Origin: Actinomycetota bacterium
GTDB taxonomy: Bacteria; Actinomycetota; Acidimicrobiia; IMCC26256; PALSA-610
NCBI GenBank assembly: GCA_005773635.1
Contig: SXHN01000118.1
Coordinates: 62,001 to 126,000, forward strand
Direction of reading: 5' to 3'
DNA: 64,000 bases
Numbering within the stretch: the first letter of the stretch is position 1; every line of letters starts with the position of its first letter. Under the pieces are notes generated by a model. That model saw only the letters and a list, made by a program, of their open reading frames with translations, was not told the origin of the DNA and did not search any database. Of the stretch, positions 1,834 through 26,049 are shown piece by piece. Position numbers and translations under genes: made by a program.

Positions 1834-3258
1834 ATGACCGACCACTCACTCCCCATTGGCAACGAACGAATCACCACAGGGTCATGGATCGAGGTCCGCT
1901 CGCCTTACAACGACACACTGTTAGCCCGCGTACCATCATGCAGCAGCGAAGACGTCAATCGGGCCGTTGCCATTGCCAAGAGCGTCCTCGCGCAAGGCCC
2001 CTTGCCAGCGTGGCAGCGCGCCGAGATTCTCGATCGCGCAGCCACCGCGCTCTCGAACCGCATCGAAGAATTCGCACAAATTGTCGCAGCTGAAGCCGCG
2101 AAGCCGTTGAAGACCGCTCGGGTCGAAGCCCAACGAGCCGTCAGCACATTTCAATTCGCCGCAGTGGCAGCAAGATCACTCGCAGGCGAGATGGTGCCGA
2201 TGGATGCCAGCGCCGCGGGTGCCGGCAAGCTCGCGTTCACGCTCCGAGTCCCAATCGGCATCGTTGGCGCGATCAGCCCATTCAACTTCCCGCTCAATCT
2301 CGTCGTGCACAAGCTCGCGCCCGCGATCGCCGCAGGCTGCCCGGTCGTGTTGAAACCAGCGAGCCAAACACCCGTAAGCGCGATCAAACTCGTTGAAATG
2401 CTCATCGACGAATGCGGGCTCCCAGCAGGCCACATCAACGTTGTGACGGGTGGCGGCGCCACAGTGGGCAACGCGATCGTCGAACACCCTGATATCGCAA
2501 TGCTGACGTTTACCGGTTCACCAGAAGTCGGTTGGGATATTCGTGCCAAAGCCGCGCGTAAAAAGGTTGGCCTCGAACTCGGCAACAATGCGCCCCTCAT
2601 CATCGAACCGTCCGGCGACTGGGAAAGCGCCGCCGCAAAGGTCGCGGTCGCGGGTTTCAGTCATGCAGGACAGTCGTGCATCAGTACCCAACGGGTGTTC
2701 GTGCATGCGTCGTTGGTCGATCGATTCACCGAGGCACTTGTCGACAAGGTCAAGAACCTAGCGGTTGGCGATCCAATGGATCCCAGCACCGATGTGAGTG
2801 CGCTCATCAACAAGGGCGAACGCGACAGGGTGCACGAATGGATCCAAGAAGCCGAAGCACAAGGGGCCACGATCGCGTGTGGCGGCTCGATTGGTGTCGA
2901 CGGCGTGCTGCCACCGACCGTGCTGTCCAACGTGGCCCACGACATGAAAGTGTGCGCACTTGAAGTCTTCGGTCCAGTAGTCGGAATCGCGAGCTATACC
3001 GACTTCGACGAAGCGCTTCGGCTCGCAAACGACACGCGCTACGGGCTTCAAGCCGCGGTCTACACCGAGAAGCTCGTTGACGCGATGAAGGCTGCGCGCA
3101 CGCTCGACTTCGGTGGCGTCTTAATCAATGAGGTGCCTACGTTTCGAGCCGATCAACAACCGTATGGAGGGCTCCGAGATAGCGGCAACACGCGCGAGGG
3201 CCCGAAGTATGCCGTCGAAGAAATGACCGAAGCTCGGCTCATCATCTTGAACGCGTAA
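1834..3258 (+). CDS. NAD(P)-dependent aldehyde dehydrogenase
   Basis: A full-length 474-residue member of the aldehyde dehydrogenase superfamily, oxidising an aldehyde to the acid with NAD(P). Visible landmarks are the ISPFNFPLN segment near residue 150, LELGNNAP with the general-base glutamate at about 248 (the usual second glycine is Asn), and GQSCIS with the nucleophilic cysteine at 282. The C-terminal EVFGP and PYGGLRDSG motifs are also present. The pattern resembles the lactaldehyde, glyceraldehyde-3-phosphate and sulfolactaldehyde dehydrogenase branch rather than betaine aldehyde enzymes. It begins 18 bases after the amidohydrolase and abuts the next gene, so the three are probably co-transcribed. 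Substrate not determinable. Confidence 0.92.
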   Translation: MTDHSLPIGNERITTGSWIEVRSPYNDTLLARVPSCSSEDVNRAVAIAKSVLAQGPLPAWQRAEILDRAATALSNRIEEFAQIVAAEAAKPLKTARVEAQRAVSTFQFAAVAARSLAGEMVPMDASAAGAGKLAFTLRVPIGIVGAISPFNFPLNLVVHKLAPAIAAGCPVVLKPASQTPVSAIKLVEMLIDECGLPAGHINVVTGGGATVGNAIVEHPDIAMLTFTGSPEVGWDIRAKAARKKVGLELGNNAPLIIEPSGDWESAAAKVAVAGFSHAGQSCISTQRVFVHASLVDRFTEALVDKVKNLAVGDPMDPSTDVSALINKGERDRVHEWIQEAEAQGATIACGGSIGVDGVLPPTVLSNVAHDMKVCALEVFGPVVGIASYTDFDEALRLANDTRYGLQAAVYTEKLVDAMKAARTLDFGGVLINEVPTFRADQQPYGGLRDSGNTREGPKYAVEEMTEARLIILNA

Positions 3259-7341: not shown

Positions 7342-10300
7342 ATGACGGATCACTCGAGCGACATCGGACCCAATGCCGGGCTCGTCGAAGAAATGTACCG
7401 ACGGTTCCAAGAGGATCCAGCCGGAATCGCTCCGGCCTGGCAGGAATTCTTCGCTGACTACACCCCCCGAACCACGAGCGCCTCGCCAACTGCACAACTT
7501 GCCGCGGCTCCCGCAGCGCCGATCCCTACAACCGCCGCCAGCGCTGCTGGCAAATCTCCCACTGGCGGTCCATCCAATATCAACCTCCTCGAAGGCGAGA
7601 CCGCAACCGCAATCAAAGGGCCGGCGAAATCGGTTGTCACCAACATGGAGCTCAGCCTGACAGTCCCAACTGCAACGTCAGTGCGCACGGTCCCTGCGAA
7701 GCTGCTGGAAATCAACCGCCAGATTCTCAACAATCATCTCGCTCGCACCGGTGGCGGCAAGGTCAGCTTCACGCACCTCATCGGCTACGCGATTCTCAAA
7801 GCACTGGCCATGACCCCGGGCATGAACGTGAGCTACGGGATCGTGGATGGTCAACCGTCAATCGCGCGCCACGACCACGTCAACCTTGGGCTAGCGATTG
7901 ACCAAAAGAAAAAAGACGGCACGCGCACCTTGCTCGTACCAAATCTCAAGGCCGCAGACACGCTGAATTTCGCGGAGTTCCATGGAGCGTACGAAGAACT
8001 CTTGCGCCGAGTTCGCGCGAGCAAAATCACGCCTGATGATTTCGCGGGTACGACCGTGTCGCTCACCAATCCTGGGATGATCGGCACTGTGCATTCGGTG
8101 CCGCGGCTGATGCCAGGTCAAGGCGTCATCATCGGCGTTGGTTCGATCGACTATCCACCGGAGTATCAAGGTGCCGACCCCGCCGTCATTGCCCGCGTCG
8201 GCGTGAGCAAAGTCGTCACAATCACCAGTACCTACGACCACCGGGTAATCGGTGGCGCCGAATCCGGCGAGTTCCTGCGGGCGATCCATCGCAATTTGCT
8301 GGGTGAAGACGGGTTCTACGACGCAATTTTTCACAGTCTCGGCGTGCCGTATGAACCGGCACGCTGGATGCAAGACAGCCAGCCGATGGACGACGCCACG
8401 GCGCTCGCCGAAAAAGCGATCCACGTGCAACAACTCATCAATATGTATCGCGTGCGTGGCCATCTGATCGCCAATCTCGACCCACTCGGTCGCAAAGAAC
8501 CCAAGACCCATCCGGAGCTCGACATCAACCACTGGGGGCTATCGATTTGGGATCTCGACCGCGAATTCCCCACGGGTGGTCTTGGGCATCAACGCACTAT
8601 GCCGTTGCGCGATGTATTGCGCTTGCTACGCGACGCCTATGCACGCACGATTGGCGTCGAGTACATGCACATTCAAGAACACGACGAGAAAACTTGGATT
8701 CAAGATCGCGTCGAGGGAGTTGGCTACCAACTTGACCTTGAGGAAAAAAAGCGGATCTTGTTTTCACTCAATGCCGCAGAAGCATTCGAAAAGTTTCTGC
8801 ACACCAAGTACATCGGCCAAAAGCGATTCTCACTCGAAGGTGCCGAAACCCTGATTCCACTCGTCGAATTCCTACTGGCCGAAGCGGCAACCGCAGGCGT
8901 GCAAGAGGTGGTGCTCGGCATGGCGCACCGTGGTCGCCTCAACGTGCTCGCCAATCTCGTAGGTAAGAGTTACGGCCAAATCTTTCGCGAGTTCGAAGGT
9001 GAACTCGACCCCGACTCGTCGCAGGGTTCTGGCGATGTGAAGTATCACCTAGGTGCGAGCGGCGAATACATGACGCATACTGGTACGCCGATTCGCGTGA
9101 CCATGGCTGCCAACCCGAGCCATCTTGAAGCCGTTGACCCCGTCGTTGAAGGCATGGTGCGAGCCAAGCAAGACCGCAATCACGAAGGCGATCAATTGTC
9201 GGTGCTTTCGGTACTCGTACACGGCGACGCCGCATTCGCGGGCCAAGGTGTTGTCGCAGAGACGCTGAACCTGTCCGAGTTACCCGGCTACGACGTCGGC
9301 GGCACCGTACATATCGTCGTGAATAACCAACTTGGATTCACGACCGCGCCAACGTTCGCACGCTCGACAGTGCATTGCACCGACATCGCAAAAAGCGTGC
9401 AGGCTCCAATCTTCCACGTCAACGGCGAGGACCCCGAAGCTGCCATCCGCGTGATTCGCCTTGCGTTCGCATTTCAACAACGTTGGAAGAAAGATGTCGT
9501 CGTCGACATGGTGTGCTACCGGCGCTACGGCCACAACGAAGGTGACGAACCCGGTTTCACTCAGCCCCGGATGTACGAACTGATTCGCGCCCGCCGCTCG
9601 GTGCGCAAGCTATATACCGAAGTATTGGTGAACCGCGGCGACCTCACGGTCGAAGACTGCGAAAGGGCGCTCGAGGATTACCAGCACAAGCTTGAACATG
9701 CCTTTGCAGAAACGCGCGACGGAAGCGAGAGCCCCGACTGGTTCGAGACCGAACCAGAACGGCGGATCGCGGCCACAATTGAAACTGGAGTCGCGCGCGA
9801 GACACTCGATCGAGTCATTACGACGCTGACGACCTTTCCTGAAGGTTTCACGGTCCACCCGAAACTCAAACGCATTCTCGAAGCGAGGCGCACAAGCTTC
9901 GACACTGACCAAATCGATTGGGCGACTGCCGAAGCATTGGCGTTTGGTTCGTTATTGCTCGAAGGCATACCGGTGCGCCTAGCCGGACAAGACAGCCGCC
10001 GAGGCACGTTCAGCCAACGACATGCGACGGTCGTCGATTTCTCGAACGAAAACGAGTACACCCCGCTGACGAATCTCGACCCAAACCAAGCTCCGTTCAT
10101 GGTGTTCGACTCATTGCTGTCCGAATACGCAGCCCTAGGTTTTGAATACGGATATTCGATCGCAGACAAAGACGCGCTCGTGTGTTGGGAGGCGCAGTTC
10201 GGTGATTTCTCCAACGTTGCCCAAGCAATCATTGATCAATTCATCGTGGCCGCCGAAGATAAATGGGCACAACGCAGCGGAATGGTGATGTTGCTCCCCC

Positions 10301-13531: not shown

Positions 13532-14482
13532 ATGAAGATGATGTTGATCGCGAACTCGGTGGCATCGTCGTACAGCGCTCGGCGACGAGTCGTCATTCGT
13601 AAGGCTCTCGCCGCGGACTGTGATCTCACCGCAGTGGAGACCGAGTACCGGGGACATGCCACCGAACTCGCAGCACAAGCTGCCGCCGACGGATTCGACG
13701 TGGTCGTCGTGCTCGCAGGCGATGGCACACTCAACGAAGCTGCCTGTGGGCTCGTCGGCACTCAAACGGCGCTCGCTCCACTTCCCGGAGGTTCTACGAA
13801 CGTCTACGCGCAGGCACTCGGAGTGCCCCTCGATCCAGTCGATGCAGCATCCGTGCTCATTCAGAGCTTGGAAACTGAATCATCGACCCGCATCGGCGTA
13901 GGCAAGGTGAACGATCGTCACTTTCTGTTTCACTGCGGAGTCGGTTTCGACGCCGCAGTCATTCGACAAGTCGAAAAATACGGTCGTCTCAAGCGCCATG
14001 CCGCGCATCCGGTTTACGTGCTTGCGGCGTTCGACACGTGGTTTCGCGGCTTCGACCGCAACGAACCAGCCTTCGACATCGAGCTTCCCGACGGCGAACG
14101 CATCGACGGTGTGTACTTCGCAATCATTCACAAGATGGCTCCGTACACCTACCTCGGCCATCGCCCAATCAACGTCGATCGCACGGCGAACTTACACACG
14201 CCACTTTCACTCACGGCATTTACCAGATGCAACGTGATCACATTGATGGGAAGCGCCGCATCAGCCATGGCTTCGGGCCGATACCTCCGGAACCGCAAGA
14301 CCATCAAGCGATACACGGAACTGGAACATTTCACGATCGCGGGCCGCAGACCCTTTCCGCGACAAGTCGATGGCGACGACCTCGGAGACACCATGCGCCT
14401 CGAAGTACAACACATCCCCGACGCAATAACCCTCATAACGCCCTATTCCCCTGCGCCAACTCCGTCCGGCGAAGCCGAGTAG
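13532..14482 (+). CDS. Diacylglycerol kinase family lipid kinase
   Basis: A 316-residue DagK/YegS-type kinase that would phosphorylate diacylglycerol or a related lipid at the inner membrane face. AGDGTLNE near residue 70 is the nucleotide-binding GGDGT motif with an alanine in first place. LPGGSTNVYA is the second catalytic-domain motif. The C-terminal beta-sandwich follows from about residue 150. Starts at 13538 and 13541 are also possible because the protein opens MKMML. It is divergent from udgB and converges on a glycerophosphodiester phosphodiesterase, so both may serve phospholipid turnover. Confidence 0.9.
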   Translation: MKMMLIANSVASSYSARRRVVIRKALAADCDLTAVETEYRGHATELAAQAAADGFDVVVVLAGDGTLNEAACGLVGTQTALAPLPGGSTNVYAQALGVPLDPVDAASVLIQSLETESSTRIGVGKVNDRHFLFHCGVGFDAAVIRQVEKYGRLKRHAAHPVYVLAAFDTWFRGFDRNEPAFDIELPDGERIDGVYFAIIHKMAPYTYLGHRPINVDRTANLHTPLSLTAFTRCNVITLMGSAASAMASGRYLRNRKTIKRYTELEHFTIAGRRPFPRQVDGDDLGDTMRLEVQHIPDAITLITPYSPAPTPSGEAE

Positions 14483-14528
14483 CACCGCCCCATTTCGCTC
14501 CTCGTCGCTCGTGGTCTCGCTGTGCTAC
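14479..14528. terminator. Inverted repeat spanning two convergent stops
   Basis: GTAGCAC at 14479-14485 and its complement GTGCTAC at 14522-14528 flank a 36-base loop. Each arm contains the stop codon of one of the two convergent genes. A shared terminator is possible, but the long loop and lack of a T-run make it weak. Confidence 0.3.
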
Positions 14529-15241
14529 CGCGTTGGCGTTAACGCTTTGCGAGCGATGTCGGGGCGGTTGGTAATTACTGCGTGCACTCCAGCGTTCGCA
14601 AAGTCTTGCATCACCGCGGGGTCATCGACCGTCCACGTATTGATCCGCACGTCGTATTCACGAGCAACGCGCATCGTTGTGTCAAGGTTGGCTTTGAGGT
14701 TGCCCCAATCGGGGTGAAGGTAATCATGTCCGTGCTCACGCGCTATACCAACCGCGGCCGCGGGATCGTGTCCATGGATCAACCAACCAGTCGTGATGCT
14801 CGCGTCGATCTCGCGCAGGTCGTTCAGCATCGCGATGTCAAATGATGACACGACAACGTTGTCAATCGCACCGCGCAACACGACGAGTTCTGCTACACCG
14901 TGGGCGACGATCCGCTGCGGATCAGCATCGCTATCCCACGAACAGCACTTCATCTCTACGTTGATCAACGGCATTGCACCGCAGACATCGAATACCTCAT
15001 TCAGCGTCGGAACATCGGGATGGATCGCCCGCAGTTCCTCGAAACGATGATCCATGACGCGACCGATGCCAGGGAGTTCGGCGTCGTGATGCACTACCAA
15101 CACACCGTCGGCCGTCCGGTGAACGTCGAGTTCAATTCCATCTGCCCCCATTTCAACGGCCAGCGAAAACGCGGCCAACGTGTTCTCCGGCGCGTCATAT
15201 GAGGCCCCACGATGACCCACCACGAGTGTTTGCATCGTCAT
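14525..15241 (-). CDS. Glycerophosphodiester phosphodiesterase family protein
   Basis: A 238-residue GDPD-type TIM barrel that hydrolyses glycerophosphodiesters to glycerol 3-phosphate and an alcohol. GHRGASYDAPENT near the N-terminus holds the catalytic HR and metal glutamate. ELDVHRTADGVLVVHHD holds the second metal aspartate and the catalytic histidine. There is no signal peptide, so it should act on intracellular diesters from phospholipid turnover. ATG at 15241 is chosen because it puts the HRGA motif near the N-terminus and a TAGGGT box lies seven bases upstream; a second ATG two codons on is possible. Confidence 0.92.
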   Translation of the reverse strand: MTMQTLVVGHRGASYDAPENTLAAFSLAVEMGADGIELDVHRTADGVLVVHHDAELPGIGRVMDHRFEELRAIHPDVPTLNEVFDVCGAMPLINVEMKCCSWDSDADPQRIVAHGVAELVVLRGAIDNVVVSSFDIAMLNDLREIDASITTGWLIHGHDPAAAVGIAREHGHDYLHPDWGNLKANLDTTMRVAREYDVRINTWTVDDPAVMQDFANAGVHAVITNRPDIARKALTPTR

Positions 15242-15248
15242 GACTCCA

Positions 15249-15254
15249 ACCCTA
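15249..15254 (-). promoter_or_regulatory. Candidate -10 box of phosphodiesterase gene
   Basis: The minus-strand TAGGGT ends seven bases before the ATG at 15241. A GGAG lies in the same interval but only two bases from the ATG, too close for a normal ribosome site. Confidence 0.45.
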
Positions 15255-15349
15255 GGCGGGCTGCAAGAACTACAGACTTGCGATTCGGACATTGAACCCA
15301 ATTCGAGAACACGTTCCAGGAGTGCACGCGAACATGCTGGTCAGAGCTC

Positions 15350-15440: not shown

Positions 15441-15722
15441 ATGGCTCTGACTTGGGTTCGCACGCACGACTGGGACGAAGCCGATTGGCGCGATACCGCG
15501 CTCTGTCGTGACACGAGTCCCGAACTGTTCTTTCCCATCGGCAGCACTGGCATGGCGATCGAACAAATCAACGCCGCCAAGAACATCTGTGCGACGTGCC
15601 CGTCCGCGGCACAATGTCTCGATTTCGCGCTGCTCACAAATCAAGAAAATGGCATTTGGGGCGGATACAGCGAAGAAGAACGGCGCCAAATCCGCCGCGA
15701 ACGAGTTACTTCGTCAGTGTAA
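15441..15722 (+). CDS. whiB: WhiB-family Fe-S transcriptional regulator (WhiB1-like)
   Basis: A 93-residue Wbl protein, a family confined to Actinobacteria and their phages. Four cluster-binding cysteines are at 22, 50, 53 and 59 (C, then CATC, then C), followed by the GIWGG turn at 71-75 and a basic tail (RRQIRRER) that contacts DNA. The spacing and the PELFFPIG segment are closest to WhiB1, the nitric-oxide-sensitive essential regulator that partners the housekeeping sigma factor. A GGGGAGGA at 15427-15434 supports the ATG at 15441. A perfect palindrome lies upstream. It converges on the PdtaS-like kinase gene. Confidence 0.95.
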   Translation: MALTWVRTHDWDEADWRDTALCRDTSPELFFPIGSTGMAIEQINAAKNICATCPSAAQCLDFALLTNQENGIWGGYSEEERRQIRRERVTSSV

Positions 15723-15741: not shown

Positions 15742-17202
15742 TCATACTTCAACGCGCACAACCGACACTGGCACGCGCAAGTGCACCCGCGTGCCGTTTC
15801 CGGTGTCGCGCATCTCAATCGATCCGCCAAGCTCGCCGGTGACGAGCGCTTTTACAATCGATAGCCCTAGGCCGGTAGATCCGTCGAGGGTCCAAGCCGG
15901 ATCGAGACCAACTCCATCGTCTTCGACATCAATCTCGAGGTGCTCGCTGCGTCGGGTGAGCTGCACGTGCACCGTACCCTCTGAACGATCCGCGAACGCA
16001 TGATCGACTGCGTTTTGCATGAGCTCGTTCAAGACCACCGCGAGCGACGTCGCCACTTCACCGAGAACCTCGCCGGCGTCACCGTCGACGGTGAACTTCA
16101 AAGCAAGATCTTGCGACGACACGCTTTCCTCGACGACACGCACCAGCGGCCGGACGATGTCGGTGAAGTCAACCACATCGCCAGCATCTCGCGAAAGTGT
16201 CTCATGCACGATCGCTATCGATCGGATGCGGCGCTCGGACTCCGCTAGCGCAGCCTTGGCTTCTTCACTGTCAAGGCGGCGAATCTGGAGGCGCAGCAGC
16301 GAAGCAATCGTTTGCAGGTTGTTTTTTACTCGATGATGAATCTCGCGAATTGTGGCATCTTTCGACATCAGCATTCGGTCTCGTCGTCGAACATCGCTCA
16401 CATCGCGCAGCAACACAATCGCGCCCGTGATCTGTCCAGAATCGAGCAGGGGAATTGCGCGCAAAACAACAATTACTTCATTGCGCTCAATCTCTTGGAC
16501 AACTGGCAGGCGAGTTTGGAAAGCCTCCGCGATGCCTTCCTCATCAAATCCGATTTCGCGCAAACGCATCCCTTGCATCGCAGCATGAATTCCCATCCGG
16601 TGCATGGAACTCACTGCGTTTGGACTCGCGAATCGCACCCGGATATCGGCGTCGACAACGACAGCGCCATCGCCGACTCGCGGCGAGGTCTCGAGTTCGT
16701 CTTCGTCTTGCACGAAAGGAAACGATCCATCAGCGATCATTCGAGCGAACCGTTGGAATGCATCCAGGTATATGCGTTCCAGTTCGCCAGACCTGCGGCC
16801 CAAGTTCGGAAGAAATTCTCGCGTGAGGAGTGCGATCAGCCGACCGTCGCATCGCACGGGTATCACTTGAACCCGTACTCGTTCTTTGCTGCCGACCGCA
16901 GGGGTGTCAGCCTCTACGACCTCACCGAGGCGCCACACACGCGTCAGCATGGGTCGTTCAACCTCATCGACCACCGAGCTCACCATGTCGGCCGGATAGA
17001 TAGTTTGCCCCGTCGTGGGCCGGGTCTGAGCCAAAACAACGAACCGATGACCTTCTTCGTTCGATAACGGCGCGAGCAACAAAAGATCTGAAAACGAAAG
17101 GTCAGCGAGCGGCCGCCACGTAGCAACCAACCTACGCATGTGTTCAAGGTCGTCGCCTTCAAGCGACGTGCGAGCACGAGCCAATTCGCCAAATGTCGTC
17201 AC
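15742..17202 (-). CDS. pdtaS: PdtaS-like sensor histidine kinase
   Basis: A 486-residue soluble histidine kinase resembling PdtaS of Mycobacterium, which phosphorylates an ANTAR-type RNA-binding response regulator. The N-terminal GAF-like domain (about 1-150), a PAS domain (about 170-285) and a HisKA_2 segment with EIHHRVKNNLQT carrying the phospho-accepting histidine are visible. The ATPase domain has NELMQNAVDHA, DDGVGLD and STGLGLSIV. The GTG at 17202 overlaps the stop of the upstream ATPase gene (GTGA) and gives the family N-terminus TTFGEL. No response regulator is in the window. Confidence 0.9.
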   Translation of the reverse strand: MTTFGELARARTSLEGDDLEHMRRLVATWRPLADLSFSDLLLLAPLSNEEGHRFVVLAQTRPTTGQTIYPADMVSSVVDEVERPMLTRVWRLGEVVEADTPAVGSKERVRVQVIPVRCDGRLIALLTREFLPNLGRRSGELERIYLDAFQRFARMIADGSFPFVQDEDELETSPRVGDGAVVVDADIRVRFASPNAVSSMHRMGIHAAMQGMRLREIGFDEEGIAEAFQTRLPVVQEIERNEVIVVLRAIPLLDSGQITGAIVLLRDVSDVRRRDRMLMSKDATIREIHHRVKNNLQTIASLLRLQIRRLDSEEAKAALAESERRIRSIAIVHETLSRDAGDVVDFTDIVRPLVRVVEESVSSQDLALKFTVDGDAGEVLGEVATSLAVVLNELMQNAVDHAFADRSEGTVHVQLTRRSEHLEIDVEDDGVGLDPAWTLDGSTGLGLSIVKALVTGELGGSIEMRDTGNGTRVHLRVPVSVVRVEV

Positions 17203-18398
17203 TGCACGGCCTCGCTTGTCGTGGGCTCGGCAAACAAGTGCGTTGCAATCCACGCCAAGCCACTGGCATCGGCGATGTCTGCAGAGCGATTCGGCACAGT
17301 CACCACAGTAGTTGGAGAGTCAACAATTTGTTTTTTCAATGCGGCCTCGTGCTGGGCGACGGCACCAAAACGCTCGAACGACGTCGTGACGGTACTCAAC
17401 ACGCGTTCGACCGACGCGACATCTTGTCCCCATTCGCCAGCATGGACGTGAGCAACTTTCGAGGCATCCCGCTGAAGCCGTGATGCGACGGCGCGCGCCT
17501 GCGGGTCAAGAAAGTACCCAGGAAGGGTTCGGTTGAGAACCAAGGCGCCCAATGAAAACGACCGTTTTCTCAATTCCGAACAGAAGGCTTCGGCCTCTCG
17601 CAAAGGAGCGCTCTCCAATGTCGAGATCACCACAAATGAAGTGCGTCGGTCACACAACAACAACTCGACTGCCCGAGCTCGCTGCACGAAGCCGTCGTAC
17701 ATCGATTGAAAGTTGAGGAAAAACTCCGCGATCTCTTCGAGAAACTTGCTCCCCAACAGTCGATCTGCAACCTGATAAAAGGGTTTGCTCGCAGCATTTA
17801 CCATCCGAGCGCCGCGCCCGCCGCCGACGCGGTACGGGAGCGTGAGCCACCGCAACAATCTCCCACCGAAGAACTCAGCCATTCGCTGTGGCGCATCCAA
17901 GAAGTCAACGGCATTTCTTGTCGGCGGCGTATCGACGACGATGAGGTCATACCGTCCGGAAGCGTGCAGTTCGAAGAGCCGTTCCATCGCAATGTAGTCG
18001 TGGCTCTGCACAAAACGAGCGGTCAAGTTGTGATAGAGGCGATTCGTCAGTATGCGCATGGCCGTTGCTTCATCAGGAGCGTGACGCATCACCAGCTCGT
18101 CCCAGCTTTGCTTGGTATCAAGCATCGCAGCAAACAGGCGTCCTCCGAGTTCCACACCTGCGGCTGCGAGCACGTCCGGAGCAACTTCGACTTCTCGGTT
18201 GCCAAGACTCTCGAGCCCGAGCGCAGTTGCAAGGCGTTTCGCAGGGTCGACTGTCAGCACCAATGCCGTCACATCGCGTCGGCGAGCAGCACCAAGCGCG
18301 ATGGAAGCAGCTATTGAGGTCTTTCCAACGCCACCCGATCCGCAGCACACCACAATCTCTTTTGCCGCGAGCAACTCGTCAAGATGCGCCGCGCTCAC
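17199..18398 (-). CDS. bagB: ArsA/Get3-like ATPase, second subunit (Rv3680-like)
   Basis: A 399-residue deviant-Walker P-loop ATPase of the ArsA/Get3 superfamily. The P-loop GSGGVGKTS is near residue 20, TVDPAKRLATAL is the switch I region, and VDTPPTRNAVDFLDAP is switch II. With the preceding gene it corresponds to the mycobacterial pair Rv3679-Rv3680 (BagA/BagB), a heteromeric ATPase complex. Its start overlaps the stop of the first subunit by four bases (ATGA), and its own stop overlaps the PdtaS gene start. The cargo is unknown; tail-anchored protein targeting or stress roles are inference from Get3. Confidence 0.88.
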   Translation of the reverse strand: MSAAHLDELLAAKEIVVCCGSGGVGKTSIAASIALGAARRRDVTALVLTVDPAKRLATALGLESLGNREVEVAPDVLAAAGVELGGRLFAAMLDTKQSWDELVMRHAPDEATAMRILTNRLYHNLTARFVQSHDYIAMERLFELHASGRYDLIVVDTPPTRNAVDFLDAPQRMAEFFGGRLLRWLTLPYRVGGGRGARMVNAASKPFYQVADRLLGSKFLEEIAEFFLNFQSMYDGFVQRARAVELLLCDRRTSFVVISTLESAPLREAEAFCSELRKRSFSLGALVLNRTLPGYFLDPQARAVASRLQRDASKVAHVHAGEWGQDVASVERVLSTVTTSFERFGAVAQHEAALKKQIVDSPTTVVTVPNRSADIADASGLAWIATHLFAEPTTSEAVQ

Positions 18399-19363
18399 AA
18401 CAACTCCTCACTCAGGGCTTGTGCAAGCGTCGTCGTCATGCGAAGCCCATGCAACGACCCGAACTGGTAGGGCAAATACAGCATCCCGACCGAGGGGGGA
18501 ACCTCGCCCCTGAGCCGCTCAAGGTGCACCGACCTCGACCGCCTGAGCTCTACCGCAAGCCGCGCTCCTTCGAACACACTGGCTGCAAGAGGTCCATAGT
18601 CCGCCATTAGGAATTCCGACACCGTGTCGGTTTGCAGCGCGTTGAATACGCGCTCATCGTCAAGTGTGAACAGCTCGGGTAGCACCCGGTTCACTACGAT
18701 CGAACCAATCGGAACCTTGGTTTCAACCTTGAGTCGGGCAACTAATTCAATGGTTTCGGCGACCGGCATCTCCTCAGGAGTTGTCACGATGTTCACTGAA
18801 GTGACGTTCGGATCCTCCAGAAGTTCGATCATCCAATCGGTTTGGTGCCGCAAGGGCCCAACGTCCGCGAGATCCCGAATCGTGCGCGCCGCGTTGAGAT
18901 GCGCAATCACGTGTCCGCTTGCCACCGCATCAACGATCACCATGTCGTACGCCGAACGGCGAGCGATCGATTCACGGACCTCCCAGGCAATTTTTCCAAT
19001 AGTCAGTATTTCGCGTACTCCGGGCGCGGCGGTGGCGACAAAGTCGAACATGTGCGCAATCGGACCAACGCGCCCGATGACTGGAATCCGGAGATTCAGT
19101 TTGAGATATTCGCGCAGCGACTGCTCGGTATCCATTGCCATCGCGTCGACGCCCAGATGCATGCGTTCAGCAATAAAGCCAACTGGCTTGTGCTCGAATT
19201 GATCGGCGACGGTTTGTTTCGCATCAACGTCAACGACGAGCACACGCTTGCCGTGTTGTGCTGCGAATAGTGCTGCAGCAGCGGCGACAGTGCTCTTTCC
19301 TGTGCCACCCTTGCCGGTGAAAAACAACAGTCGTTGATCGAGCCACGCCGGGCTAGGGCCCAT
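18395..19363 (-). CDS. bagA: ArsA/Get3-like ATPase, first subunit (Rv3679-like)
   Basis: A 322-residue partner ATPase with the deviant Walker A GKGGTGKST near residue 17, VDVDAKQTVADQF as switch I, and VIVDAVASGHV in the switch II position. There the usual DTPPT-type motif is missing, so this subunit looks divergent. It is the promoter-proximal gene of a three-gene overlapping operon (bagA-bagB-pdtaS). A TAAGGT box six bases before the ATG indicates a leaderless transcript. The mycobacterial orthologues are also adjacent and lie next to a whiB gene, similar to the whiB about 1.5 kb away here. Confidence 0.86.
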   Translation of the reverse strand: MGPSPAWLDQRLLFFTGKGGTGKSTVAAAAALFAAQHGKRVLVVDVDAKQTVADQFEHKPVGFIAERMHLGVDAMAMDTEQSLREYLKLNLRIPVIGRVGPIAHMFDFVATAAPGVREILTIGKIAWEVRESIARRSAYDMVIVDAVASGHVIAHLNAARTIRDLADVGPLRHQTDWMIELLEDPNVTSVNIVTTPEEMPVAETIELVARLKVETKVPIGSIVVNRVLPELFTLDDERVFNALQTDTVSEFLMADYGPLAASVFEGARLAVELRRSRSVHLERLRGEVPPSVGMLYLPYQFGSLHGLRMTTTLAQALSEELL

Positions 19364-19389: not shown

Positions 19390-22300
19390 TTATCGCCCAA
19401 ACACTCCCGAGTTTCGAGAATTGCCACCCGTGCGTTTCCACCCAGAACCGCGCGCGCCACCTTTGGAGTGCCAGACAATCAACACACCGTCACGGCGCAC
19501 AACCGCGACCTCACTCTGGCCGTCACCATCCCAGTCGCCGATACCGGGCGTCCCGACCAACCAGCCCCCAGTCAGTTTCGGCCACCCGCGTGGCGCTCCC
19601 CCATCAGCATTGAACGCGCTCAACGTGTAGAGCCCGTTTCCGGCAATCGTTTCACTGCGACTGTCGCCATCCAAGTCGAATATCGCTGGCGTCACGAAGA
19701 ACGCCATATCTGGGGTCGTTCTCGGTAACCCCGTGAAAGTGTTGCCGGAATTGCCGTTCCACGCCGAGAGGTGATCGTCTGCAGGCAGTTGCAAATCGCT
19801 CGCTTGGATATCGATAACTCGGGTCAAACCTGCCGTCGGGGCTGCGGGGTCGGCGTAGGCATCGGTATTCAAGCGCCCAAGCGCGGGCCCGCCAAACAAC
19901 GACACTGAAGCGATGAGATCACGCGTGTTGGTCCGAGCGCCAAATCGTGTCAGCCCGCTGCCATCGAGACCGCCAGCCCAAGCCAACGGGAGATCCAGAC
20001 CGTTCACTTGCCCGTACACACTGCGACCTTGACCGTTCAAAACATACATGGGCCCAGCCGCGCTCGATGCGACTACCTCCCTTCCAGCATTGGCCGCGAA
20101 CACATTTCCAATCGCGACCTGGGCTGAGACTCCATCGCCGATGGTAGGCAACACCGCGAGCGAGAGCATGCCCAACTTTGCAGGCCAGCCCGGCAGATAC
20201 GCTTGCTCATGAGGATGCGAAGGATTGGTGTCTGCGTGCGTTGCGCGCGTTCCTAGCGACGAAATCGCATAGAGCCGACTGTTTCCTGGCGTTCCGACCG
20301 CCCCAAGCAATGCCAGCACATCGAACCCGTCGCCGACGTTGATGGGCTCGGCGTATTCCTCCTGTGCTCCAATCACGATCTCGGGGCGTCCATCACCCGT
20401 GATGTCCGCGATCGATGGCGTCGCGATCAATTCTCCGCCTTCGCGCACTCCCGAACCGCCAACAAAATCAACGGCATGACTCACTGGATCGATCGAGCTC
20501 ACCTTCGACGGATCCACCACCAGAATTGGAAACCCATCGACTGACGTCGCATCGTGGTGCCACGCGTATACGTGACGGTCCGCGGCCGCCGAAACGATTT
20601 CTAACGTTCCATCACTGTCAAGATCCGCGACAGCCGGCGAGCCAAAGAACATTGGTTTCGTCCGATTGAACTCATCGTGTTCACCGGGAAGATCACGCGA
20701 GTATGCCTCCGTCACCGACTGTGGGAACCCTGCTCGAATTTGACCTTTGGCATTCCACACGTAGACCTTGCCGTCGAGCGAATTCGCAATGATCTCAACG
20801 TTGCCGTCACGATCAATGTCTGTGATCGCAGGCCCGCCCACTGGAATCGCGGCACCCGGAGCTTCAATACCTGCTCGCCGTCCCGCAGGTGAATGCATGG
20901 GCCAAAACGCAGCCGTATTGGTGCGCACCGGAAAACCTTGTAGTTGGGTTCCGTCACTCCGCCATGCGTGGATGCGCCCGTCGTCGGTGCCCAACACAAG
21001 TTCTTTGCCGCCCGTGCCATCAAGCTGGGCGAAGACGGGGCTCGAGGTGCCAACACCTTTGACCCGCTTCGGAAAGCCCTCCACAAGATCGGGGTCGTCA
21101 TGCACAAAGATCTGACGCTGATCAACCGCCTCAGCACCATCTGCCACACCACCAACGGCCATCACTACTACCCGCACGCGTACAGCAAACTTCTCCTCAT
21201 CGGGTCGATCGCCTGACGTAGTCGGGGCCCCCTTCCCGCCGCCTGGCAAAGCCGCAGCGATCGCGCCAAGATCAATCGTCGCGAGCGTGCCGCGTTTCGG
21301 ACCAGTCACACCCTGTTCGTGCGCCACAATGTGCCAGTCATCGGTGCCCGGATATTCCGGTGCTTGCAGGCCAACCGCCCATTCGACGCGATAGTCATAG
21401 CTTGCAGCGCGAGGCGCGCTCACAGCAGCTTCCACGCGCATCGCTCCGCGTATCCCCTTGACATCAAACCAATTCGGAGTGAGTAAATCTGCCGACGGGG
21501 GAATCGCTTTGGCGCGGACCATTCGCAATGCTTCGTAGGCGTTGAGGCGCCCGTATCCGAATGTCGCGTCCCAGCCTTTGGTCGTTGGATACCGAACGGT
21601 GTCGAGCAGTCCGCCAGTACTCGCTCCAAAGTTGTTAGCCGGATCAACAGAATTCGGAGTCGCAAAATCGATGTCGTCGGCTGCGAGCCGCACGATCTGC
21701 ATGACTTCGTTCGCAGTCAATTCAATTCCGAGATCCCGCGCTTCGCTCTCGATGAGCCCAACAATTCCAGCCGAAATTCCTGTTGCCTCCGACGAACACG
21801 ACCCCGACTCAACACTCACAAACGTGCGACCGCCGTAATTCGTACACCCATTCAGTGCCAAATAGCCGTCGACTGATCCACCCAACAGATTCTCGAGCTT
21901 GGTCACCGAATTCACCGCCATCGTGTGACGCAATGCCGCAGGAAGGTTCGGGTGTTTGCTCGCTTCATCAGCCATCGATGCAACGACGACAACGTTGCGA
22001 TCGTAGGCAAGGTCGATAGCCTTTTGAGCAGAACTCGGATTATTGATGACGCCGAGCGCCTCTTGAATTACTGCTGCGTTGGAGTCCAACGCGAACAACA
22101 CGCCAGCCGCAAAGCGTTGTCCGTCAGCAATAAAGCTGTCGCTCACGCGCACCGGAAGAAACATGCAGTTGGGGCAGCTACCGACGTCTCCAGAGCCATT
22201 CTCGGCCGCGGTGGAATCTTCCGCTTCGCCGGTGCCGTGCCCATATGCCACTGTGTCGAGCGGATTGTTGTCACCGTAGAGAAAATCCCACCCACTGATA

Positions 22301-22881
22301 TCGTCGACGTATCCATTGTGGTCGTTGTCGATGCCATCGTTGAATGCAGGATCAAGAATGAGATCTTCGGGATCGGCCAAGCCATTGCCGTTGCGGTCGG
22401 CAATCGCATCAAAGTCCTCGATGTTGACCCGACCGTCAGCATTGCAATCCGAAGCCAGCGATACACATGGCGGCGCAGCTTCACCGACATTGATGTAAGC
22501 CTTCGTTGCTAATTCCCGCATCGCATTTGCATCGCGCCACTTAATGCCTGAATCGAGCACCGCGATCGTCACATCCGATCGACCCTTTTGCAGCCCCCAG
22601 GCCAAATCAACGGCCATGCCCATTTGACCGCAATGGTTCTGCGGCGAATTCATCAGCGCCGGGTTCGGGTCACGCAACGACGTGCGTTTGTAATTCGAAC
22701 GATCGAACTCTGCAGGGATCACGCCAGCCGCTGGTTCGTCGGTTGGTCCGTACCGCCAATTCGCGCAGTCAAGCGCCGCGCCGGCGGAGGTAGGCGTCGC
22801 CGCGGGCGACTCGTCTGGCACCGAAATGGTTCCCATCGCCGCGATCGCGACGACACTGAGTGAACTGAATAGCCTCTTCAT
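19390..22881 (-). CDS. Secreted subtilisin-like serine peptidase with FG-GAP repeats
   Basis: A 1163-residue protein with a signal peptide (residues 1 to about 28), an S8 peptidase domain (about 90-455) and a long C-terminal region of FG-GAP/VCBS-type repeats (about 590-1163, for example DIDRDGNVE and DWDGDGQSE). Catalytic residues are D110 (VLDSGI), H215 (YGHGT) and S370 in GISAG, where most subtilases have GTSMA. The oxyanion-hole position normally GNE reads ADE (D305). An EF-hand-like insert with DCNADGRVN and DNDHNGYVD lies between D110 and H215. It is probably exported and may act at the cell surface. Upstream lies mrp. Confidence 0.88.
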   Translation of the reverse strand: MKRLFSSLSVVAIAAMGTISVPDESPAATPTSAGAALDCANWRYGPTDEPAAGVIPAEFDRSNYKRTSLRDPNPALMNSPQNHCGQMGMAVDLAWGLQKGRSDVTIAVLDSGIKWRDANAMRELATKAYINVGEAAPPCVSLASDCNADGRVNIEDFDAIADRNGNGLADPEDLILDPAFNDGIDNDHNGYVDDISGWDFLYGDNNPLDTVAYGHGTGEAEDSTAAENGSGDVGSCPNCMFLPVRVSDSFIADGQRFAAGVLFALDSNAAVIQEALGVINNPSSAQKAIDLAYDRNVVVVASMADEASKHPNLPAALRHTMAVNSVTKLENLLGGSVDGYLALNGCTNYGGRTFVSVESGSCSSEATGISAGIVGLIESEARDLGIELTANEVMQIVRLAADDIDFATPNSVDPANNFGASTGGLLDTVRYPTTKGWDATFGYGRLNAYEALRMVRAKAIPPSADLLTPNWFDVKGIRGAMRVEAAVSAPRAASYDYRVEWAVGLQAPEYPGTDDWHIVAHEQGVTGPKRGTLATIDLGAIAAALPGGGKGAPTTSGDRPDEEKFAVRVRVVVMAVGGVADGAEAVDQRQIFVHDDPDLVEGFPKRVKGVGTSSPVFAQLDGTGGKELVLGTDDGRIHAWRSDGTQLQGFPVRTNTAAFWPMHSPAGRRAGIEAPGAAIPVGGPAITDIDRDGNVEIIANSLDGKVYVWNAKGQIRAGFPQSVTEAYSRDLPGEHDEFNRTKPMFFGSPAVADLDSDGTLEIVSAAADRHVYAWHHDATSVDGFPILVVDPSKVSSIDPVSHAVDFVGGSGVREGGELIATPSIADITGDGRPEIVIGAQEEYAEPINVGDGFDVLALLGAVGTPGNSRLYAISSLGTRATHADTNPSHPHEQAYLPGWPAKLGMLSLAVLPTIGDGVSAQVAIGNVFAANAGREVVASSAAGPMYVLNGQGRSVYGQVNGLDLPLAWAGGLDGSGLTRFGARTNTRDLIASVSLFGGPALGRLNTDAYADPAAPTAGLTRVIDIQASDLQLPADDHLSAWNGNSGNTFTGLPRTTPDMAFFVTPAIFDLDGDSRSETIAGNGLYTLSAFNADGGAPRGWPKLTGGWLVGTPGIGDWDGDGQSEVAVVRRDGVLIVWHSKGGARGSGWKRTGGNSRNSGVFGR

Positions 22882-22972: not shown

Positions 22973-24076
22973 CTAGATAATCTTCAGTTCGGGCCGGTAA
23001 ATGCGCGTGGGCGCAAGGTCAACGACGATCGTCTTGGCGATTTGCTGAATGACTTGACTCGCTTCGGAGTCGGGATTGGCAACCATGATGGGCGCGCCAT
23101 CGTCGGAGCCTGCGCGTAATTCTGGGATCAGTGGCACTCGTCCCAACAACGGAACATCGAGCGTGTCAGCCAGCGCTTGGCCACCACCTGCACCGAAAAT
23201 TTCGTAGCGCTCTCCGTGATCGCATGTGAACCAACTCATGTTCTCGATCACCCCCGACACTGTCAAGTTCACCTTTTGCGCCATGTACGCGGCCCGTTGC
23301 GCGACCTTTTGTGCCGCGGCTTGGGGGGTTGTGACCACAATGACTTCGGCGCGCGGCAAGAACTGCGCCATCGAAATGGATATGTCTCCAGTGCCCGGTG
23401 GCATATCGATAACTAAAAAGTCAGGGTCGTCCCAGAATACGTCGGTCAGAAATTGATTCAACGCTTTGTGCAGCATCGGACCTCGCCACACAACAGGTTG
23501 GTCCTCACGAGCGAAAAACCCCATTGAAATCAGCTTGACGCCATGAGCTTCCGGTGGCACCAACACGTCGTCGATCACTGTTGGTGGACGATCGATGCCG
23601 AGCATGCGCGGCATCGAGAAGCCCCAGACGTCGGCGTCGATGGCTGCAACGGAGTGACCCATCTGCGCCAAAGCAATCGACAAATTCGCGGTGATGCTGC
23701 TCTTGCCGACACCACCCTTACCGCTAGAAATTGCAAGAATGCGCGTGCGGTTACTTGTAAAGGGATTCGGTCGCTCGGTGCCCACGGTTTGGCCGCCGCG
23801 CATCAGTTCCGACACTTTGGCGCGTTGATCATCGCTCATCACCGTGAAATCGAGTTGAACCTCGGACACGCCGGGTAACGCTCGAACCGCGGAGGTCACA
23901 CGATTCGTGATCTCTGCTTTGAGCGGGCACCCTTGCACCGTTAGCGCAATCGTGACAGCCACATTCGGGCCGGCAATCACGATGCGATCGACCATACCGA
24001 GGTCCACGATCGAACGGTGCAATTCGGGGTCCTCCACAGGCCGCAATGCTTCGAGGATCTCGGTTTCGGTGGCCAT
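22973..24076 (-). CDS. mrp: Mrp/ApbC-type Fe-S cluster carrier ATPase
   Basis: A 367-residue protein with an N-terminal MIP18 (DUF59) domain (about 1-90) and a P-loop ATPase domain with SSGKGGVGKSS near residue 120 and DMPPGTGD. Mrp proteins carry and deliver Fe-S clusters. The usual CxxC region reads WFTCDHGERYEIFG, so only one of the two cysteines seen in ApbC is present. The ATG at 24076 is chosen because GGAG lies exactly six bases upstream; an ATG at 24088 has it one base away. It is divergent from a SufR-like regulator and a cysteine desulfurase, consistent with an Fe-S theme. Confidence 0.93.
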   Translation of the reverse strand: MATETEILEALRPVEDPELHRSIVDLGMVDRIVIAGPNVAVTIALTVQGCPLKAEITNRVTSAVRALPGVSEVQLDFTVMSDDQRAKVSELMRGGQTVGTERPNPFTSNRTRILAISSGKGGVGKSSITANLSIALAQMGHSVAAIDADVWGFSMPRMLGIDRPPTVIDDVLVPPEAHGVKLISMGFFAREDQPVVWRGPMLHKALNQFLTDVFWDDPDFLVIDMPPGTGDISISMAQFLPRAEVIVVTTPQAAAQKVAQRAAYMAQKVNLTVSGVIENMSWFTCDHGERYEIFGAGGGQALADTLDVPLLGRVPLIPELRAGSDDGAPIMVANPDSEASQVIQQIAKTIVVDLAPTRIYRPELKII

Positions 24077-24151
24077 TACTAACTCCATGCTCCAGGCGGG
24101 AACCCAGTATCCGGGCTCGATGTGGTGGGTTTCCAGCGCAACTGAATTTCC

Positions 24152-24165
24152 CCTATCTCCATAGG
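24152..24165. promoter_or_regulatory. Inverted repeat between mrp and SufR-like gene, candidate operator
   Basis: CCTAT and ATAGG flank a four-base spacer and abut the TACAAT -10 box of the regulator gene. The position fits autoregulation by an HTH dimer. Confidence 0.4.
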
Positions 24166-24171
24166 TACAAT
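24166..24171 (+). promoter_or_regulatory. Candidate -10 box of SufR-like gene (leaderless)
   Basis: TACAAT, five of six matches to TATAAT, is followed by six bases and the GTG at 24178. CTGAAT at 24142-24147 is a possible -35 with an 18-base spacer. Confidence 0.55.
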
Positions 24172-24177
24172 ACCGAC

Positions 24178-24921
24178 GTGGCCGGGCCAGATAGCACTTC
24201 AGCGAACTTCACCGCATCGGAATTCAGTGCTGCGGTCGCGGCGGTTACGAATGCGTTCGGCGACCCCACGCGGCGCGATATCTACTTGTTTGTGCGAGCG
24301 TCGCCAATGGGGGTACGAGCCGCAGAAGTCGCCGATCAATTCGAATTGCACAGCAACGTTGCTCGGCACCACCTTGAGAAACTCACCGCAGGCGGCTACT
24401 TGACCGTCGATATTCTGCGACACGAATCAGCCGGTCGACCCTCAAAAAACTATCGAGCATCCGATTCTGATACCGATTTGGCGTTCCCGCCGCGTCGCGA
24501 CGATCTCCTTGCAATGCTGCTTGCTCGTGCACTCGGTCGCTTGCCGCGCGAGGAGGCAAGCCAACTCGCCGAGGAAGTGGGTTACGAATACGGGCGCGTG
24601 TTGGCGCAGCGCATCGACCCAGCAGAGAGTCACCGGTCGCTCAAGGCCGCGGTGGGTTCGGTAGCTGACGCACTTACTGCGCACGGCTTCGCGGCCCATA
24701 GCGAGTCGAGCAATAGCGGCTTGACACTTGTGCAAGAACACTGCCCGTTTGGTGCAGCCGCCCAGGAGTATCCCCATGTGCTGTGTGCAGTCGACATGGG
24801 CATGATCCGGGGCATGCTCGAAGGTCTCTATGGCGAAACTCAGCCACACGTCACCATGTCGCGTCCTGACGGTGATTCCCATTGCGTGACGGCCGTTCCG
24901 ATCACTCCAATGGCGCGCTAG
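24178..24921 (+). CDS. SufR-like HTH regulator with three C-terminal cysteines
   Basis: A 247-residue regulator with an N-terminal winged helix (FGDPTRRDIYLFVRAS, HSNVARHHLEKL near residues 25-70) of the ArsR/DeoR-like type. Its C-terminal domain has conserved cysteines at 189, 203 and 236 (HCPFG, LCAVD, HCVTAV). This is the layout of SufR, the Fe-S repressor of suf genes, although the spacing (C-x13-C-x32-C) differs from the cyanobacterial protein. GTG at 24178 follows a TACAAT box directly. It lies 15 bases before a cysteine desulfurase gene and opposite mrp, so it probably senses Fe-S status. Target genes are inference. Confidence 0.82.
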   Translation: MAGPDSTSANFTASEFSAAVAAVTNAFGDPTRRDIYLFVRASPMGVRAAEVADQFELHSNVARHHLEKLTAGGYLTVDILRHESAGRPSKNYRASDSDTDLAFPPRRDDLLAMLLARALGRLPREEASQLAEEVGYEYGRVLAQRIDPAESHRSLKAAVGSVADALTAHGFAAHSESSNSGLTLVQEHCPFGAAAQEYPHVLCAVDMGMIRGMLEGLYGETQPHVTMSRPDGDSHCVTAVPITPMAR

Positions 24922-24936
24922 CGGCGACGTCCGCAC

Positions 24937-26049
24937 ATGACTGCACGGGTATACCTCGATCACGCGTCAGCATCTCCGCTGCTGCCCGTGGCGTTCGAGG
25001 CGATGATGCCGTGGCTGCGAGATCACTACGCGGACCCTGGCCGCTTACACCGAGAGGCACTCGAGGTTCGCGCCGCCATCGAAGACGCGCGCAGTGCAGT
25101 CGCAGACTTCGTTGGCGCACGGCCCCGAGAAGTCGTGTTCACCTCGTCAGGAACCGAAGCAATCAATACCGCGTTGTGGTGGGCAGACCGGCACGTAGTG
25201 ACAACCGCAGTAGAACACGCCGCCGCTCGTGAAGTATTTGAGCGTGGCAACGTCGAAACTACGGTCGTCGGGGTCGACCGCTGCGGAAAGTTCGACGCCA
25301 GTGCCGTCGTCGACGCCGTGCGACCCGACACCCAGCTCGTCAATATCCAGCTCGCGAACCATGAGGTCGGCACACTGCAACCCGTCGGCGAGGTATGCCA
25401 TGCACTTCGCGACCACCCTGCACGCATACACGTCGACGCTTGCGCAGCCTTCGGCAACGTCCCGATCAACTTCTCTGAAGTCGGTGCGGATCTCATGTCG
25501 ATTACCGCGCACAAAGCTGGCGGACCGGCCGGGGCAGCCGCACTTCTTGTGAAACGAGGAGTCCGAATTCCAACGTTGGTAGTTGGTGGAGCCCAAGAAC
25601 GAGCGCGTCGAAGTGGAATCGAAAACACTGCAGCCATTGTCGGCTTCGCCGCTGCCTGCACCGCAATCAACATCGGCGAACGCGCAGCTACGGCGCGAAA
25701 GCTCATTGCCCAAGCCTGGCGCGAGATCAGTGCAGTCGAGCGAGTGCACAGACTCGGGCCGCCAGCAACGCCCGATGAGGCATTACCTCATCTGCTGTGT
25801 CTCTCGGTTGAAGGTGTGGAAGCCGAGCCCATCCTCATTGCCTTAGATCAGCGTGGAATCGCCATACATTCAGGGTCGGCATGTTCGTCAGAAAGTTGGG
25901 AACCTTCGCCCATACTCGCGGCTATGGGTGTCGAAGCACAGCATTCACTGCGAATTTCTGTTGGCTGGTCCAGCACCGAATCTGACATATCACGATGCGC
26001 AATTGCCTTCGCGGAAGCCGTCGAACAGCTGCGCGCTCTCAACAGCTGA
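24937..26049 (+). CDS. Cysteine desulfurase, NifS/IscS-like
   Basis: A 370-residue class V aminotransferase fold enzyme that takes sulfur from cysteine as a persulfide. The internal aldimine lysine is K193 in SITAHKAGGPAG. The persulfide cysteine is C316 in HSGSACSS, the motif of group I (NifS/IscS) desulfurases. The N-terminal YLDHASASP and HVDACAAFG motifs are also typical. It follows the SufR-like regulator by 15 bases and is probably co-transcribed. No scaffold (IscU/SufU) or suf genes follow, so it may serve tRNA thiolation or general cluster assembly. Confidence 0.93.
   Translation: MTARVYLDHASASPLLPVAFEAMMPWLRDHYADPGRLHREALEVRAAIEDARSAVADFVGARPREVVFTSSGTEAINTALWWADRHVVTTAVEHAAAREVFERGNVETTVVGVDRCGKFDASAVVDAVRPDTQLVNIQLANHEVGTLQPVGEVCHALRDHPARIHVDACAAFGNVPINFSEVGADLMSITAHKAGGPAGAAALLVKRGVRIPTLVVGGAQERARRSGIENTAAIVGFAAACTAINIGERAATARKLIAQAWREISAVERVHRLGPPATPDEALPHLLCLSVEGVEAEPILIALDQRGIAIHSGSACSSESWEPSPILAAMGVEAQHSLRISVGWSSTESDISRCAIAFAEAVEQLRALNS

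Follow-up and report, generated by a model that had tools for sequence, protein, structure and literature searches.

In bacteria of the class Acidimicrobiia, a pair of genes for Get3-like ATPases of the BagAB type is found upstream of the gene for the histidine kinase PdtaS. The arrangement is represented in the window, a stretch of 64,000 nucleotides from an Actinomycetota bacterium of this class (assembly GCA_005773635.1, contig SXHN01000118.1, positions 62,001 to 126,000), and a survey of related genomes established that the association of this pair, here termed BagAB-P, with PdtaS is real and class-wide. Functional coupling of the two ATPases with the kinase is plausible but unproven on the sequence evidence presented below. 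The genes and junctions concerned are:

18395 to 19363, minus strand: bagA-like ATPase gene (BagA-P, PdtaS-linked paralogue), 322 amino acids, ATG start, TGA stop at 18397-18395
17199 to 18398, minus strand: bagB-like ATPase gene (BagB-P, PdtaS-linked paralogue), 399 amino acids, GTG start
15742 to 17202, minus strand: pdtaS histidine kinase gene, GTG start, with the Pfam domains GAF_PdtaS, PAS_4, HisKA_2 and HATPase_c
18395 to 18398, minus strand: four-base overlap of bagA and bagB, GTGA
17199 to 17202, minus strand: four-base overlap of bagB and pdtaS, GTGA

The preliminary description of this DNA had noted overlaps of four bases at each junction of the three genes, and the open reading frames and the DNA itself bear this out. 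A longer open reading frame for pdtaS, starting at 17253, is available; the GTG at 17202 was preferred because it fits the N-termini of relatives and a GAF_PdtaS match that begins at residue 5. Both ATPases score well above the PF02374 (ArsA_ATPase) cut-off of 24.3 bits (BagA-P, 92.9; BagB-P, 81.4). The genome (3.56 Mb in 125 contigs) holds one PdtaS match, the window's copy, and one PdtaR-like protein, which accounts for its single ANTAR match (receiver PF00072 with ANTAR PF03861); a second bagAB pair is located on contig C8.

For the survey of gene order, flanks of up to approximately 9 kb per side were taken around 99 pdtaS places and a single bagAB place (L130, genome G042); the pdtaS places came from the phylum set without G148 and G183, from 39 of the 56 other relatives with a match, and from G059. 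Matches to PdtaS turned up in 57 of the 61 genomes made up of the window's own and its relatives, in 64 of 149 taken from the phylum and in 84 of 149 genomes of a class sample. Within the class sample, P-type (PdtaS-linked) BagB was recognized in 63 of the 149 genomes among the matches listed, a scope that holds for all counts of P-type genomes given here and within which weaker copies could be missed. With 60 of these 63, the gene lies upstream of pdtaS on the same strand and no further than about 10.2 kb from the GAF match, the distance being within 0.7 kb in 36, between 0.7 and 3 kb in 18, and between 3 and 12 kb in six. As for the remaining three, both genes sit at contig ends in G026 and G248 and on different contigs in G049. 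The 63 genomes were picked by hand as those with matches above the best second-locus match, together with G039, G123, G022 and G134, which were added on the strength of the joint tree described below; G272, G256, G232, G309 and many others have no position in a tree. PdtaS was present in all 63 class genomes with P-type BagB vs 21 of the 86 without it, a comparison uncorrected for relatedness.

The same order is evident in named records. Sixty-one of 80 such loci were of the P type (51 by tree, 10 by score only), and pdtaS follows downstream in 53 of them, including Acidiferrimicrobium sp. IK, Desertimonas flava and a metagenome-assembled genome (MAG) of Ca. Microthrix parvicella; seven of the other eight reach the end of their sequence within 2.2 kb. 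NCBI assigns 33 of the 61 records to Acidimicrobiia and 10 to 'Actinomycetes', and gives no class for 18; all were taken as Acidimicrobiia by judgement. For three loci (L267, L272, L280) the window's BagB gave the top score, yet they fell outside the P side of the tree and were not counted. BagAB-like genes were also seen outside the actinobacteria, as pairs in L272, L278, L279 and L280 and as BagB only in L275; the labels of these records are Polyangiaceae, Deltaproteobacteria, proteobacterium and Gemmatimonadetes.

Neither bagA nor bagB was found beside pdtaS in any of the 51 loci from other classes, over fetched stretches of at most about 9 kb a side, some of these contigs being only 4-6 kb long; WhiB was present in 32 of these loci and a DAGK-family kinase in 22. 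In mycobacteria, the preliminary description had stated, BagAB and PdtaS are separate, and the printed locus numbers (Rv3679-Rv3680 vs Rv3220c) agree, as do the 51 loci. It had also considered that the order might be seen only in this genome; the gene-order survey shows it to be conserved across the class.

The ATPases themselves are not orthologues of the mycobacterial pair. Trees were computed for BagB (84 rows), BagA (80 rows) and both genes jointly (96 rows); all are unrooted, and Rv3679/Rv3680 were not included. The joint tree omits six loci in which just one gene was usable, and its rows were required to carry the motif G.GG.GK[ST]; of nine loci fetched for the lone pairs of PdtaS-less families, six entered it. 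A single branch (100/100) parts the joint tree into two BagAB groups. The window's side comprises 43 P rows (together at 99/98), the six pairs of PdtaS-less families and G066 from another class, while across the branch are 27 rows (100/99) formed by the C8 pair and the class's second pairs, joined by 19 of the 20 pairs that other classes contributed. No row obtained on other grounds falls in the P clade; since pdtaS was the reason for fetching nearly all P rows, the clade is no test of the linkage. The BagA tree alone recovers the group split at 100/99. In the BagB tree alone, the group of second pairs and other-class pairs is firm (100/100), and support for the window's side is low (77/94), three rows on long branches being unresolved; the long branches in the trees are those of G123, G134 and G022. 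The equivalog models NF053622 and NF053621 score both window proteins below their cut-offs (BagA, 184 vs 400 bits; BagB, 281 vs 521 bits), but as the C8 pair also falls under them (145 and 362 bits), the equivalog cut-off alone is not discriminating.

Hence the window ATPases, which the preliminary description had treated as mycobacterial-type bagA and bagB, are identified by the joint tree as paralogues of the BagAB pairs that most other classes have. That bagAB had simply moved next to pdtaS is ruled out, given two paralogue groups and a C8 pair that groups with most other classes. The two pairs would trace to a duplication that predates the class, as we infer from unrooted trees that do not prove it. 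The mycobacterial BagA and BagB (Rv3679/Rv3680, PDB 6bs3-6bs5) are the best solved relatives (E values of 7e-39 for BagA-P with 6bs3_A and 2e-60 for BagB-P with 6bs3_B) and resemble the window's genes in being paired; unlike them, the window pair belongs to the other paralogue group, and it is the C8 pair that is the counterpart of most other classes' pairs.

The second BagAB pair also has a two-component protein as its neighbour:

Contig C8 of the genome (locus L140, G000:C8), 9671 to 10060, equivalent to 2673 to 3062 of locus L002: atypical receiver-domain protein, standing alone and encoded immediately after the second BagAB pair; PF00072, 38.1 bits against a cut-off of 30.2

Of the 28 class loci with a second bagAB pair, which were not chosen for the receiver, 26 have a receiver protein after the pair and on its strand. 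The start of the receiver lies within 135 bp of bagB, or overlaps it by four bases, in 20 cases, and at 459 and 638 bp in two; the open reading frame calls extended into bagB in four loci. After bagB, no receiver was found in the 20 other-class loci, two of which (L169 and L179) have less than 1 kb of sequence there, nor in the nine loci of PdtaS-less families. Alignment of the 26 receivers, judged by eye, revealed the phospho-acceptor Asp in all and the Lys in 25, and, set against the receiver consensus, substitutions affect one member of the acidic pair and the customary Thr/Ser (LDR motif). With a receiver by the second pair and PdtaS by the P pair, both BagAB pairs of the class therefore adjoin two-component proteins. 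This supports a signalling role and is the strongest reason for the idea of a link between ATPases and kinase.

CpaE/TadZ consists of an atypical receiver fused to a MinD/ParA-type ATPase, and may serve as a model for the second pair and its receiver in that an atypical receiver works there with a related ATPase; unlike CpaE/TadZ, the genes here are separate and the ATPases are a Get3/ArsA-type pair instead of a ParA-type ATPase.

The motifs of the two ATPases differ. The P-loop of BagA-P (GKGGTGKST) carries the signature lysine of the GKGGxGK motif and that of BagB-P (GSGGVGKTS) is without it, a distribution seen throughout the joint tree (BagA, 96 of 96 rows; BagB, 0 of 96) and also in the 6bs3 chains; a heterodimer would therefore have unequal sites. 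The switch II motif of BagA-P, VDAVASGHV, had been singled out as unusual, and it does depart from the Get3 consensus, though it is nearly typical of its own clade: 38 of 43 P rows fit VDA..[ST]GH[IV], with the exact VDAVASGHV in two. Rv3679 has VDAPPTGRI at this position, and among 20 BagA rows of other classes PPTGR occurs in ten and PAAGHM in five.

We tentatively favor, while holding it to be somewhat less than probable, the reading that BagAB-P is an ATP-dependent heterodimeric switch that sets the activity of PdtaS, both pairs of the class being partners of two-component proteins. Thus, in the Acidimicrobiia both BagAB pairs would have become such partners; BagA-P and BagB-P would form an ATP-dependent heterodimer with unequal sites, bind a hydrophobic client or ligand, and set PdtaS activity, either through direct contact with the GAF/PAS region of the kinase or through control over what reaches it. 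PdtaS would then signal to the single PdtaR-like ANTAR regulator of the genome, and the theme of this signalling may be envelope, iron or redox stress. The window PdtaS is like mycobacterial PdtaS (Rv3220c) with PdtaR (Rv1626) in its GAF-PAS-HisKA_2-HATPase layout and in having one ANTAR partner in the genome; it differs from Rv3220c in the BagAB paralogue directly upstream and in the absence of the dicysteine discussed below.

The wider neighborhood in the window has these further members:

15441 to 15722, plus strand: whiB-like gene, convergent with pdtaS at a gap of 19 bp (PF02467, 82.2 bits, cut-off 23.6)
22973 to 24088, minus strand: Mrp-type ATPase gene (NUBPL/ParA family, FeS_assembly_P domain by Pfam), upstream neighbor
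19390 to 22881, minus strand: gene for a subtilase/FG-GAP repeat protein (Pfam), between mrp and bagA
14525 to 15301, minus strand: glycerophosphodiester phosphodiesterase (GDPD) gene, conserved neighbor
13532 to 14482, plus strand: DAGK-family lipid kinase gene, conserved neighbor, as also in the loci of other classes mentioned above

Neighbors were identified by direct searches, greedy neighbor clustering having proved too noisy from antisense open reading frames, and for each gene the loci whose flank was too short were excluded. Within the taxonomic order of the genome, the block aminotransferase-HTH-Mrp-(DUF3107)-BagA-BagB-PdtaS-WhiB-GDPD-DAGK-UDG-TauE-DapA is largely kept: near pdtaS, BagB was found in 33 of 34 loci, Mrp in 24/26, WhiB in 30/32, GDPD in 25/29, DAGK in 28/29, UDG in 19/24 and DapA in 20/21. 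The corresponding values for the class outside this order are 7/10 for BagB, 5/8 for Mrp, 8/9 for WhiB, 6/8 each for GDPD and DAGK, 2/7 for UDG and 0/5 for DapA. In the window, mrp, an HTH regulator gene and a gene for a class-V aminotransferase, presumably cysteine desulfurase-like, form a block (22973-26049) upstream of the cluster that recurs in many loci of the order. In 30 of 34 loci the stretch from mrp to bagA contains a DUF3107 gene; none was found there in the window or in three relatives from its family. The idea of a leader RNA ahead of bagA, bound by PdtaR, was dropped in view of the DUF3107 gene in those 30 loci. Junctions were scored by taking the in-frame start nearest the upstream stop, which favors overlaps. 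Scored in this way, an overlap of one or four bases is possible at 38 of 44 bagA-bagB junctions, and the spacing between bagB and pdtaS is 0-30 bp in 17 of 43 loci. One open reading frame in L103 matches both BagA and BagB.

Several observations weigh against a coupling of the pair with the kinase. An overlap of four bases between bagB and pdtaS is possible in only six of the 43 loci, so that it is ruled out as a general feature; the gap exceeds 150 bp in 12, some of them with unrelated genes in it, which, judged by eye, vary by locus and are in some cases on the opposite strand. No fusion of BagB with PdtaS was seen among the open reading frames of the surveyed loci. The kinase also exists without the pair, as 21 of the 84 class genomes with PdtaS have no recognized P-type pair and the pdtaS of G049 has 6.8 kb upstream without bagAB. 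Conversely, L257, an Ilumatobacteraceae MAG, has mrp-bagA-bagB with whiB as the very next gene, and a search of its genome yielded no PdtaS. The receiver and the P-type pair are at different loci, and the receiver-linked pair occurs also in G035, where PdtaS was not found. DAGK, GDPD, UDG and DapA, which have no obvious link to the pair, are likewise conserved in the taxonomic order, and outside it BagB is kept no better than WhiB, GDPD or DAGK. Finally, both positions of the GAF dicysteine lack Cys in all 50 class PdtaS proteins. The proposal in the preliminary description that the ATPase pair and the kinase act together is thus supported in part: it gains from the class-wide order and from the receiver beside the other pair, and loses from the paralogous nature of the ATPases, from the wide gaps and from genomes with the pair or the kinase alone. 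Its example, ATPases that feed the signal sensed by the kinase, is conjectural.

A possible alternative, though on the doubtful side, is an inherited gene order without functional coupling: an ancestral pair would have stood between mrp and pdtaS, rearrangement would have been slow, and the overlap in the window would reflect compaction in this lineage. The block from the aminotransferase to DapA that is largely conserved in the order would be expected on this account, as would the tolerance of inserted genes between bagB and pdtaS and the retention of pair and kinase each alone in some genomes. However, outside the order the distal neighbors DapA and UDG are lost where BagB mostly stays (small numbers throughout); no P-type BagB was found elsewhere on a PdtaS contig among the matches listed; PdtaS accompanies P-type BagB far beyond its frequency in the other class genomes, with the reservation on relatedness made above; and a receiver protein accompanies the second BagAB pair. 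The bagAB-pdtaS link outlasts some neighbors but not all, and it is therefore moderate evidence for shared function.

Distinctly unlikely is co-expression for the same stress (nitric oxide, carbonyl, iron or redox) without contact, in which PdtaS/PdtaR would sense and regulate and BagAB-P would repair or chaperone. The mycobacterial phenotypes do overlap, BagAB reportedly guarding against glycerol and nitric oxide toxicity and PdtaS responding to nitric oxide and copper (PMC8131098) and, with a PAS-linked heme response, to heme, iron and redox or oxidative stress (PMC11537054); furthermore, the neighbors Mrp and WhiB are from families linked to iron-sulfur clusters, for WhiB according to abstracts. 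Against this, the BagAB phenotype known from mycobacteria is that of the other paralogue group, mycobacterial-type pairs, though not Rv3679/Rv3680 themselves, being present in the tree. Moreover, PMC8131098 attributes inhibition by copper and nitric oxide to the GAF dicysteine (53-CVAQC-57), in place of which the window PdtaS has V and T; the dicysteine is absent from class PdtaS and is complete in four of the 51 proteins from other classes. The best-known link to nitric oxide and copper therefore does not carry over, and sensing of these by way of the GAF dicysteine is ruled out for the window PdtaS.

The gene order of the window can be set beside a known arrangement. As described in PMC3765725, wblA and sco3578 form a convergent pair (cutoRNA) conserved in Streptomyces, Frankia, Thermobifida and M. 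tuberculosis, and the window likewise has a bagAB-type unit with a convergent whiB-family gene; unlike wblA-sco3578, the window whiB converges on pdtaS, downstream of a paralogous pair, and whiB is convergent with pdtaS in many loci of other classes too. Convergence between whiB-family and bagB-type genes is thus already published. Among the matches listed from the open literature, outside which most subscription papers fall, there is no published report of a linkage of BagAB with PdtaS or with a receiver.

For the biology of these organisms, some caution is in order: neither the mycobacterial BagAB phenotype nor the cysteine-based sensing of PdtaS should be assumed for the Acidimicrobiia genes. 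The occurrence of BagAB paralogues tied to pdtaS in one place and to a receiver in another provides a concrete, testable link of Get3-like ATPases with two-component proteins. It is doubtful, but conceivable, that BagAB of the Acidimicrobiia as a whole belongs to two-component signalling, with the P pair as a dedicated ATP-dependent regulator of PdtaS and the other pair governed by the degenerate receiver. If this were true, Get3-type ATPases would act as phospho-signalling switches, beyond their part as targeting factors.

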